64,000 bases of DNA from an uncultured Flavobacteriaceae bacterium. Lineage in GTDB: Bacteria; Bacteroidota; Bacteroidia; Flavobacteriales; Flavobacteriaceae. This document shows, in pieces, positions 961 to 3,297 of this stretch; the first letter of the stretch is position 1; every line of letters begins with the position of its first letter. The position numbers were made by a program, and so were the translations under genes. The stretch is from contig CANNAC010000009.1 of the NCBI GenBank assembly GCA_947502495.1, positions 1-64,000 on the forward strand, in the 5' to 3' direction. The notes beneath the pieces are model-generated. The model saw nothing but the letters and a program-made list of their open reading frames with translations, ran no database searches and was not told the origin of the DNA.

Positions 961-1371
961 TTATACTTCTAAATATTCAAGAACCTGTTTCCATGTTTCA
1001 AAAGGCTTCTTCCCAAACATAATATGTTCTCCTTCAAAATCAGCAACTCCATGATTTCTTGAATCATCAATTATATAATCTCCTTTTACTAAATTCTTGT
1101 GATGTGTAAATATCAATCTTTTTTTAGCTTCTAAAGCAATATGTTTTTCCACCCATAAGCGTTTTTCCATCCAACAATGCGGGTTACTCCACACTGGTGT
1201 TGTTACAATATAACAATCGTATATTTTACTTAATACCTTAAAAGCATATATAGCTCCTTTAATTGGCTTATTATTTAAGAAAAATCCTTTCTTATTTTTA
1301 TTTTCAATAAATAGGCCTTCTCCCAGTTCTACTAAAACACCATCCATATCTATGAATACAATCTTTTTCAT
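961..1371 (-). CDS. HAD-like hydrolase, 5'(3')-deoxyribonucleotidase-like
   Basis: N-terminal FIDMDGVLVEL (DxDGV HAD motif I), later DYIIDDSRNHG typical of NT5C-like proteins. Confidence 0.8.
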   Translation of the reverse strand: MKKIVFIDMDGVLVELGEGLFIENKNKKGFFLNNKPIKGAIYAFKVLSKIYDCYIVTTPVWSNPHCWMEKRLWVEKHIALEAKKRLIFTHHKNLVKGDYIIDDSRNHGVADFEGEHIMFGKKPFETWKQVLEYLEV

Positions 1372-1375
1372 ACTA

Positions 1376-1669
1376 TTAAATTTTGTTTATTATTAAATAA
1401 TTTTGCTCTCTTGTAGCTGAATCGTATTCCTGAAACTCGCAATAAAAACATGTGATTAAAGTGTTATTATCTACTTTAATAAAGAGTTCTTTATTTAAGC
1501 TCCTATTTATTTTCTTTAATACTTTTCGACTTACAATAAAAAGTGTGTTCGCATGATTTGTTTCTACATTTTTTAATATTTGAGTTAGAAGTTTATCATT
1601 TATACATCTATCCCATTGTCTGAGAGTAAAATGGTCTGACTTTGAAAAGCCTGCTATAAAATGGCTCAT
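1376..1669 (-). CDS. Hypothetical protein in pVip operon
   Basis: 97-aa ORF; ATGA overlap with the upstream pVip stop codon (1666-1669) and 4 bp from the downstream HAD gene. Confidence 0.65.
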   Translation of the reverse strand: MSHFIAGFSKSDHFTLRQWDRCINDKLLTQILKNVETNHANTLFIVSRKVLKKINRSLNKELFIKVDNNTLITCFYCEFQEYDSATREQNYLIINKI

Positions 1670-3093
1670 ACTATACCTTCCTCCTTTCTTAAATCCTGAT
1701 TTTTAGTATACTCCCAATTATAAACACCTCCTCTATCTAAAAACTTACCCAAATCATAATCCATAGTTTTAATTGCTTCTTTTACACCTACTTCTAAAAT
1801 GGGCTTACTATAATTATGTGTGCCTTGCGCATTATCAAAAAAGCGTCCTGCTGGATCCACCATTACATAACTTCCTTTAATTTCATCATTAGACTCTGGC
1901 ACTATCGTTTTTACAGTCTTATGGGTATTTAAAAAATAATTATATTCTTCATCTGTTATTTTAAAGTCATCAATCTTATTATCATTTTGCCCAACTATTG
2001 GCAATACCTGTAATACTTTCCATCGTTTTGGTTTAGCGTAGGTCACAAATTCTGTTAGGTTGTCTTTATAGTTTACTTTATTAACTACAGTGTTAATCTT
2101 TAAGCCATATCCATACTTTTTAATATTATCTACTAAATCATAATAAAACGCTTTACTTAATGGTGTTTTCCCTGTAATTGCTCTACCTATTTTAATATTG
2201 TTTTCATCCTCTAAACTATCTACACTTACTGCAATCCAATCTAAGTAGGCTGTGTTCTCTTTTAAAAATGCATCTGTTAATTTACTACCATTGGTTACAA
2301 TCATGGTAGTCATACCAAGTTGCTTTGCTTTCTTAATTAAATTTGGTAACCATTTGCATAATAAAGGTTCTCCGCCTGCAAAGGTTATTTTTTCAAACCC
2401 TGCAGCAGCAATTTGCTCTACCACTTTTAAAGCATCTGCTTCAGGTAAATGTCCTTTTGGTAAAATGGTTTGTTTTACATCTTGAAAGGTTGCAAAGCAA
2501 AATTTGCAACGCATGTTACATGGTTCCCAAAGGTGAAAATTGATACTTGGTATGGCTATTACAGCATTACACTCTTGATAATGACTTATTATTTTTTGTG
2601 CCACTTCATTAGGTGTTAAATTATCTGTATTGATAACCAAATCATAATTATTATCTATTGTAAAGTCAACATTATAGCGGTTTAAAAAACGTGTTCGCAT
2701 ATTTTCATTTCTTAACTGAATTGCTTCAGGGCTTGTTACCTCATCTACTCTATTACCTAAACTTATTCTTTCAGATGCCTTTTGATCAGATACTTTTAAT
2801 AATACATTAAAAGCATTTTCAATAAAATGAAATCCAAGCCTATAATCAATAACTATATTATCTTTACTATTACATTCTGTTTTAAATTTCTCATCAATTA
2901 GATTGTCCAATTCCGGATGATTATTGCAATGTTTTTGAAATTGGTTAATGGTCATTCCATACGTTTTCATAGCAAATGCTCTAGAGTAATTTCCTACCGA
3001 AATGAATTCAAAGTTTAATTGTTCTTCAATAAGTTTACCTACTGTTGATTTTCCTGTTCCTGCAAATCCGCTTAATGTTATTTTATTTTTCAT
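1666..3093 (-). CDS. Nucleotide (CMP-like) kinase fused to prokaryotic viperin (radical SAM, pVip)
   Basis: N-terminal P-loop GFAGTGKST. C-terminal NFHLWEPCNMRCKFCF (CxxxCxxC), KITFAGGEP, RWKVLQVLPIVGQN, ESNDEIKGSYVMVDPAGRF and ILEVGVKEAIKTMDYDLGKFLDRGGVYNW align by eye with vertebrate viperin motifs. Confidence 0.93.
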   Translation of the reverse strand: MKNKITLSGFAGTGKSTVGKLIEEQLNFEFISVGNYSRAFAMKTYGMTINQFQKHCNNHPELDNLIDEKFKTECNSKDNIVIDYRLGFHFIENAFNVLLKVSDQKASERISLGNRVDEVTSPEAIQLRNENMRTRFLNRYNVDFTIDNNYDLVINTDNLTPNEVAQKIISHYQECNAVIAIPSINFHLWEPCNMRCKFCFATFQDVKQTILPKGHLPEADALKVVEQIAAAGFEKITFAGGEPLLCKWLPNLIKKAKQLGMTTMIVTNGSKLTDAFLKENTAYLDWIAVSVDSLEDENNIKIGRAITGKTPLSKAFYYDLVDNIKKYGYGLKINTVVNKVNYKDNLTEFVTYAKPKRWKVLQVLPIVGQNDNKIDDFKITDEEYNYFLNTHKTVKTIVPESNDEIKGSYVMVDPAGRFFDNAQGTHNYSKPILEVGVKEAIKTMDYDLGKFLDRGGVYNWEYTKNQDLRKEEGIV

Positions 3094-3156
3094 TGGTTTT
3101 AGTTTAATGGTTAGTTAATCCTCTCCTTTACATTAAAGACGAGGTATTATTAATAA

Positions 3157-3297
3157 TTACTTTTTAGCATTCTGGTTTGGGTTTAACTGTTTCCCTCTAT
3201 TCCCATGTACTTTACTATTTGCACTGTTAGTTCCAGATGTTCCCTTGTTAGCATTTCCTTGATTTGCTTGGTGGTTGTTTTGTTTTGAATTGCTCAT
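3157..3297 (-). CDS. 46-aa Asn/Lys/Gly-rich small protein
   Basis: Not in ORF track. Reverse strand reads MSNSKQNNHQANQGNANKGTSGTNSANSKVHGNRGKQLNPNQNAKK*, about 63 bp upstream of the kinase-pVip gene, same strand. Confidence 0.55.
   Translation of the reverse strand: MSNSKQNNHQANQGNANKGTSGTNSANSKVHGNRGKQLNPNQNAKK

Follow-up and report, generated by a model that had tools for sequence, protein, structure and literature searches.

The window is the whole 64,000-nucleotide stretch of DNA analysed here, and contig 9 in the 4.07-Mb genome of an uncultured Flavobacteriaceae bacterium begins with it. Near its own beginning, the window contains a viperin cassette that is present in one copy in this genome (Table 1). 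Read along the minus strand from position 3297 to position 961, the cassette comprises a micro-ORF, a gene encoding a kinase-viperin fusion (pVip-kinase), a gene encoding a 97-aa protein (designated here U97), and a gene encoding a capless relative of 5'(3')-deoxyribonucleotidases (designated here NT5C). An earlier note on this DNA had described four tightly packed, same-strand open reading frames (ORFs), including an ATGA overlap, and all four were found where it had placed them, on the minus strand. The stop codon of pVip and the start codon of U97 share the 4-bp ATGA, the gap between U97 and NT5C is 4 bp, and 63 bp separate the micro-ORF from pVip. The packing is not due to chance, as the same order, with or without the micro-ORF, recurs in other loci (L012, L013, L020–L023, and L025). 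While the gene list of the earlier note was correct for these four ORFs, it had overlooked a divergently transcribed histidine kinase and LytTR response regulator (3510–5306), which, together with their candidate operator, provide the strongest evidence at this locus. The leader ahead of the micro-ORF also contains a small inverted repeat, GTTTAGCA-TGG-TGCTGAAC, which is partly compensated in relatives (alignment A6) and may represent a structure.

Table 1. Features of the viperin cassette and of the adjacent divergent two-component system in the window.
Feature	Position	Strand	Description
NT5C	961–1371	-	136 aa, capless HAD phosphatase, kin of 5'(3')-deoxyribonucleotidases
U97	1376–1669	-	97 aa; predicted fold b-a-a-b-a-b-b-b
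pVip-kinase	1666–3093	-	475 aa
Viperin (radical SAM) domain, C-terminal	1678–2553	-	Residues 181–472 of pVip-kinase; PDLC02905, NF038283
CMP-kinase-like domain, N-terminal	2578–3093	-	Residues 1–172 of pVip-kinase; Cytidylate_kin2, VakA, Walker A
Micro-ORF	3157–3297	-	46 aa, first in the cassette; low-complexity, NRGKQLNPNQ family
Small inverted repeat	3326–3344	-	GTTTAGCA-TGG-TGCTGAAC; leader ahead of the micro-ORF; alignment A6
Candidate LytTR operator	3394–3443	-	TATCCCAAA 3443–3435, TATCCCAAA 3422–3414, TGTCACAAA 3402–3394
Sensor histidine kinase, LytS/His_kinase-like	3510–4550	+	Divergent from the cassette
Response regulator	4551–5306	+	REC + LytTR DNA-binding domain; Response_reg, LytTR

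The kinase-viperin fusion and the distribution of pVip loci

Judged by its sequence, the 475-aa protein is certainly a CMP-kinase-like domain fused to viperin, in agreement with the identity given in the earlier note. The whole protein scored 1018 bits against PADLOC model PDLC02905 ("Viperin-kinase fusion", "pVip-kinase"), and its second half scored 331 bits against the NCBIfam viperin model NF038283 (cut-off 180). The solved viperins 7n7h and 5vsl were matched at 1e-47 in alignments spanning the full viperin domain, with the whole barrel, and the [4Fe-4S] cluster motif CxxxCxxC is present as CNMRCKFC at residue 192. The kinase domain carries a Walker A motif (GFAGTGKS) at residue 9 and matched Cytidylate_kin2 (1e-11) and VakA (103 bits), as well as the (d)CMP kinase model TIGR02173, with a score (83.6 bits) under the cut-off of 102. 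Such a fusion is already known, as PADLOC holds a model for exactly this arrangement, and 15% of bacterial viperins were already known to have kinase neighbours (PMC11249213). Across pVip loci, the kinase is fused N- or C-terminally or encoded by a neighbouring gene. In L024 (8576–9861), the kinase-pVip gene is open in its viperin part but apparently split into two ORFs in its kinase part.

pVip genes are rare (8 of 400 genomes in a family-level sampling). Our comparison therefore covers 58 distinct Bacteroidota loci, the window included, assembled from 80 named loci (85,488 species genomes) and from whole-genome searches. A kinase of any kind was found in 26 of these 58 loci. The order kinase-pVip fusion, U97, NT5C was found in seven loci besides the window (L012, L013, L020, L021, L022, L023, and L025) and occurs in at least four genera; L095 shows the order pVip-kinase, NT5C, U97. 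The suggestion that the neighbouring ORFs belong with pVip, which the earlier note had tied to conservation of gene order in Bacteroidota, was thus borne out: these neighbours are conserved, NT5C being present in 12 of the 58 loci, always with a kinase, and U97 being found in pVip genomes in a search of 301 genomes. Further viperin genes (L100–L107; 38–45% identity) lie on IMG/VR viral contigs of 19–115 kb and probably represent phage-borne viperins.

The micro-ORF is not a specific companion of pVip. Homologues were found 5' of pVip in L012, L020, L021, L023, L024, and L015/L029 and 3' of pVip in L018, L049, L050, and L060; however, two genomes (L151 and L152) have the micro-ORF ahead of a different ORF and lack pVip in the surrounding stretch. 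As two of five strong matches are without pVip, we rejected the micro-ORF as a pVip-specific partner.

NT5C and U97, the two small proteins downstream of pVip

NT5C scored 56.5 bits against PF06941 (cut-off 24.8; 4e-15) and carries HAD motifs I–IV (D8/D10, T58, K92/K96, D102/D103), of which T58, K92, K96, D102, and D103 are invariant in alignment A3. Alignment with cytosolic 5'(3')-deoxyribonucleotidase from mouse shows that NT5C retains the catalytic motifs. Residues 25–69 of the mouse enzyme, by contrast, are aligned with just residues 21–27 of NT5C, which lacks about 38 residues in the stretch from motif I to the conserved core. The AlphaFold (AF2) model (pLDDT 91) presents a compact HAD core in which the cap region consists of two short helices only; its best PDB matches are the 5'(3')-deoxyribonucleotidases 3bwv, 2jao, and 1q92 (E 3e-11 to 8e-9), followed by weaker fold matches to the T4 Pnkp 3'-phosphatase and to CTD phosphatases. 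The kept motifs, the missing cap residues, and the compact core with these best matches together identify the protein as a capless NT5C, sharing with the NT5C/NT5M family its HAD core and catalytic motifs and differing from it in its length of 136 aa and in the deletion of the cap. The description of this ORF as HAD nucleotidase-like therefore stands as far as family and motifs are concerned; the helical cap, however, through which known 5'(3')-nucleotidases make contact with the base, is missing from NT5C.

All 12 loci in which NT5C adjoins pVip contain a nucleotide kinase, as compared to 14 of the 46 other loci (Fisher 1e-5); five tree-independent pairs, none of them contradicting this pairing, are too few to reach 0.05. 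The kinase is fused on either side of viperin in these loci, or, in L017, encoded by a separate TMPK-like gene. NT5C sits with pVip at about five places of the pVip tree, and on a tree of 80 pVips NT5C and U97 require six changes each, suggesting that these pairings were made more than once or were moved. The pVip-associated NT5C class (>248 bits) is confined to pVip genomes; as short and full-length NT5C genes are found unlinked in many genomes, we rejected NT5C as a generally pVip-exclusive HAD. In the L020 copy (10180–10590), motif I reads DMNG owing to D10N, a change expected to impair catalysis; this may be a decaying copy or one with a non-enzymatic role.

We tentatively propose that NT5C opposes the kinase by acting on monophosphates, a reading that we would rate as possible rather than probable. 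Two other roles for NT5C are conceivable, though both appear doubtful. First, NT5C may act not on free nucleotides but on 3'- or 5'-phosphates of RNA or DNA ends or on a protein, for example on ends made by U97 if U97 is an RNase. Its deleted cap is consistent with such a role, as are the T4 Pnkp and CTD phosphatases among its weaker fold matches, the nine loci that NT5C and U97 share out of 12 for each, and the HicA and RelE RNases found beside other pVips (PMC10865869); however, the best sequence and fold matches of NT5C are to 5'(3')-deoxyribonucleotidases, and NT5C tracks the kinase (12/12) more strictly than it tracks U97 (9/12), and we consider this role rather unlikely. Second, NT5C may mainly deplete deoxynucleotide pools (dCMP, dUMP, dTMP), representing a second anti-phage strike, parallel to dNTPase and dCTP deaminase defences, instead of detoxification. 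NT5C enzymes as a family prefer deoxynucleoside monophosphates, which favours depletion. Nucleotide-depleting CRISPR-associated HAD phosphatases that protect against phage (PMC12715507) favour it as well, but a depleting enzyme that is present at all times would have to be tightly controlled, and we likewise see little reason to expect that depletion is the main role.

U97 is present in 12 of the 58 Bacteroidota loci, and real matches among the 301 genomes searched were found only in pVip genomes; elsewhere, the search gave two frame-broken weak matches. Nothing convincing was found for U97 in Pfam, NCBIfam, PADLOC, or PHROGs, and a fold search with its AF2 model (pLDDT 83) yielded neither PDB matches below E 0.2 nor viral-model matches below 0.001. 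None of 10 U97 members was matched by a HicA profile, even at E values of up to 10. We also compared U97 with DUF4258 and ParE/RelE profiles built from genomes. The score against DUF4258 was 15.7, with 60 shuffles reaching at most 12.7, and a helix pattern, H-F-x-x-R-Q-W-x-R, is what aligns; against decoys, DUF4258 was weakly better and RelE was not better. In light of this weak profile similarity and of the RNases that adjoin other pVips (PMC10865869), it is possible that U97 is an RNase. More specifically, U97 may be a BECR-fold (DUF4258/RelE-like) RNase toxin, the cassette then being a viperin plus RNase system like the HicA- and RelE-pVip pairs. The predicted order of its secondary structure elements (b-a-a-b..b-b-b) would also fit this fold, but hhalign gave a match to DUF4258 with a probability of only 2% (P 0.02), the fold searches provided no significant PDB or viral match, and no antitoxin gene was seen; we thus regard a BECR-fold toxin as a questionable assignment. 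In having a small protein gene directly beside pVip, the cassette resembles the HicA- and RelE-pVip operons (PMC10865869), from which it differs in that U97 matches neither family by sequence and is at most a putative RNase.

A divergent LytTR two-component system and its candidate operator

The histidine kinase encoded divergently from the cassette has one transmembrane segment (about residues 13–39), a long linker, an H-box (H145), and an N-box (ENALKHG). Its score against the His_kinase profile (19.2 bits) is under the cut-off of 25.2, while a homologue in L030 scored 43.7 bits; homologues of this kinase adjoin pVip in 21 loci. The response regulator matched Response_reg (8e-17) and LytTR (1e-5); among 20 aligned regulator homologues, REC was found in 20 and LytTR in 17, and D8, D56, and K102, which include the phospho-acceptor Asp and the Lys, are invariant. 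A LytTR regulator adjoins pVip in 37 of the 58 Bacteroidota loci (38 with a more distant one in L047; L070 is doubtful) and thus accompanies pVip in more loci than do NT5C and U97. Divergent transcription of the regulator gene is seen in L038 and in the window's own clade; in the other loci, the gene lies directly upstream of pVip; a regulator also accompanies pVip in L088, a contig titled Candidatus Saccharibacteria. About a third of the Bacteroidota pVip loci are without a LytTR regulator, and several Chryseobacterium-type loci have the regulator with no adjacent kinase.

In the 212 bp separating the divergent units, three 9-bp direct repeats follow one another at periods of 21 bp and 20 bp, leaving 12 and 11 bp as spacers. 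LytTR sites have been described as direct repeats of 9–11 nt with spacers of 11–13 nt and no common consensus (PMC4847170); the repeats in the window, with 9-bp units and spacers of 11 and 12 bp, fit this geometry. Three sites with the same periods were found in L012, L013, L020, L021, L022, L023, L025, and L028, such that three TATCCCAAA-type repeats are present in 9 of 11 divergent-type loci; L024 has two of the sites, and L015 has a weaker pair. In loci that carry the micro-ORF, the third site lies 104–106 bp ahead of the first ORF. The observed number of pairs was reached by 0 or 1 of 2000 first-order Markov shuffles in the three-site loci, as compared to 10 for L024 and 35 for L015. No such repeats were found in L038, where a more distant regulator belongs to a divergent two-component system. 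Loci with the regulator directly upstream of pVip, which represent another regulator clade, carry a different, TTTCATTACTC-like repeat 3' of the regulator stop codon with the same period. In a scan of offsets from 12 to 39, 21 was the best offset in both locus sets (7.96 vs. a null of 5.79, sd 0.22; 9.09 vs. 6.78, sd 0.26), about 9–10 standard deviations above shuffles, a figure that is not a formal p value as the loci are related. Part of the conservation of the repeats is likewise not independent, since related promoters share descent. A scan of the 4.07-Mb genome identified only one tandem with no mismatch, namely the candidate operator in the promoter gap; no second perfect site was found, and the best other site has two mismatches and falls within a coding gene. 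Between the regulator stop codon and pVip, 3' of the repeats, terminator-like hairpins (e.g., TGCGTTTCC...GGAAACGCATTTTTTT) were observed in L052, L055, L057–L059, L061, and L063; in these loci regulator and pVip are probably separate transcripts.

In 13 other loci (L014, L016/L031, L019/L042, L026, L027, L043–L045, L047, L048, L053, L054, and L062), a 640–950-aa protein is encoded directly upstream of pVip in place of the regulator. This protein has a C-terminal PD-(D/E)xK-like motif, with weak Mrr/NERD matches in some members and TPRs in some. Regulator and PD-(D/E)xK-like protein were never both found within 3 kb (0 shared, 37 vs. 13 loci; Fisher 6e-8), and the sister pVips L051 and L053 differ in which of the two they carry; differing pairs taken from the tree all point the opposite way for the two genes, though they are too few to reach 0.05. 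The PD-(D/E)xK-like protein could be an alternative sensor or a second effector. In Myxococcota, pVip genes follow a gene for a membrane protein whose C-terminal part is a sigma-70 region-4 domain (L080:7590–8870; homologues in L085–L087, L089, L093, L094, and L096); this protein is likely another dedicated regulator, suggesting that dedicated regulators may be general for bacterial viperins.

The adjacent sensor/regulator pair and the predicted DNA-binding sites at the cassette promoter make it probable that a dedicated signal switches viperin on, and we consider it likely, from these sequence features, that the histidine kinase/LytTR pair controls the cassette through the repeats. That the four genes would instead form a constitutive metabolic cassette beside an unrelated two-component system controlling something else is improbable, because, common as such regulators are in Bacteroidota and absent as they are from about a third of pVip loci, the adjacency occurs in 37 of 58 loci and takes two different forms, the shared promoter gap holds nearly invariant repeats of the expected period that form the single perfect site in the genome, and regulator and PD-(D/E)xK-like gene are mutually exclusive.

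Proposed mechanism, related systems, and the surrounding island

Under signal-dependent control, the membrane-anchored histidine kinase would sense an infection or stress cue and phosphorylate the LytTR response regulator, which would bind the three direct repeats between the divergent units and turn on the micro-ORF, pVip-kinase, U97, and NT5C. The fused CMP-kinase-like domain may then provide more nucleoside diphosphate, and hence triphosphate, for the viperin domain, which would make a ddh-nucleotide (presumably a ddhNTP) that terminates phage RNA. NT5C may strip the phosphate from ddhNMP or (d)NMP, either limiting self-toxicity or starving replication, and U97 would be an auxiliary protein, possibly a toxin-like RNase. 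Taken as a whole, we hold this model of a self-contained, signal-controlled viperin cassette with moderate confidence. On a broader scale, Bacteroidota viperins may be modular immune loci in which a dedicated sensor-transcription module (LytTR with its operator, or the interchangeable PD-(D/E)xK-like protein) controls a ddh-nucleotide enzyme accompanied by a kinase, the capless nucleotidase, and a small protein of a new kind, as a convergent counterpart of the signal-induced animal viperin; to us, the case for and against this generalization appears evenly balanced.

The cassette shares with other prokaryotic viperins, including those matching PDLC02905, the radical SAM viperin domain, the cluster motif, and the fused nucleotide kinase, and differs from them in its adjacent LytTR two-component system with matching operator. 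PADLOC contains no model matching U97, NT5C, or the micro-ORF, and a literature search, which did not cover the core pVip papers and hence does not prove novelty, gave no report tying viperin to a two-component system, NT5C, or U97. Vertebrate viperin and CMPK2 similarly combine viperin with a nucleoside monophosphate kinase and are interferon-induced, as the cassette is probably signal-induced; here, however, the kinase is CMP-kinase-like and fused (TMPK-like in L017) and control would be by phosphorelay, such that the regulation would be convergent, not shared. Detocs also combines a histidine kinase with receiver proteins in a defence locus, but its three-gene phosphorelay is the defence itself, whereas no effector (e.g., PNP) is fused to the receiver here; as the receiver in the window carries a LytTR domain with an operator, it should regulate transcription instead of acting as a direct effector. 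LytS/LytTR systems such as YpdA/YpdB and AgrC/AgrA have the same REC-LytTR regulator and direct repeats of ~9 bp with a ~12-bp spacer; the system described here differs in its single-TM sensor without a known sensor domain, in having three sites in place of two, and in its apparent dedication to a defence cassette. In Marinomonas, a histidine kinase/response regulator pair controls CRISPR-Cas (PMC8523701), in an arrangement different from that of the pVip cassette.

The locus bears on two questions about bacterial viperins, namely how they are switched on and how cells survive the chain-terminating nucleotide. The linked two-component system and defined operator make the first directly testable, with regard to signal, sites, and fold induction, and the kinase-nucleotidase pairing makes the second testable by single-enzyme assays. 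Our observations further suggest that predicting pVip function from the enzyme gene alone misses regulators and partners, and that the native promoter and the histidine kinase/response regulator pair may be needed for visible protection.

The cassette lies in surroundings that we regard as a defence island, in which positions 5328–14043 of the window encode a GIY-YIG/DUF4357 protein (PADLOC PDC-S14) and a type I restriction-modification system; a 512-aa ORF among the latter genes contains a Fic-like motif (HPFVDGNGR), spotted by eye. On the other side, a 119-aa ORF (188–547, minus strand) gave a weak match to the LIC10280 family (29.7 bits; cut-off 100) and recurs beside pVip cassettes in L013, L020, and L021, and on the opposite strand in L055, L057, and L060; we consider it cargo or a hotspot neighbour. 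This ORF is flanked by a ~60-bp repeat with a palindrome (TTCCGACAAAGTCGGAA; 34–92 and 890–957), which comes to within a few bases of the NT5C stop codon, has seven full or partial copies in the genome, and appears to be a repetitive element at the island edge. L012 and L152, which belong to one genus, share a flanking gene (MNEKIKYELEFPIHASPS), with the pVip cassette present in one; its counterpart in the other genome consists of integrase-like, micro-ORF, and PDC-S14-type genes, and we interpret this site as a variable defence hotspot.
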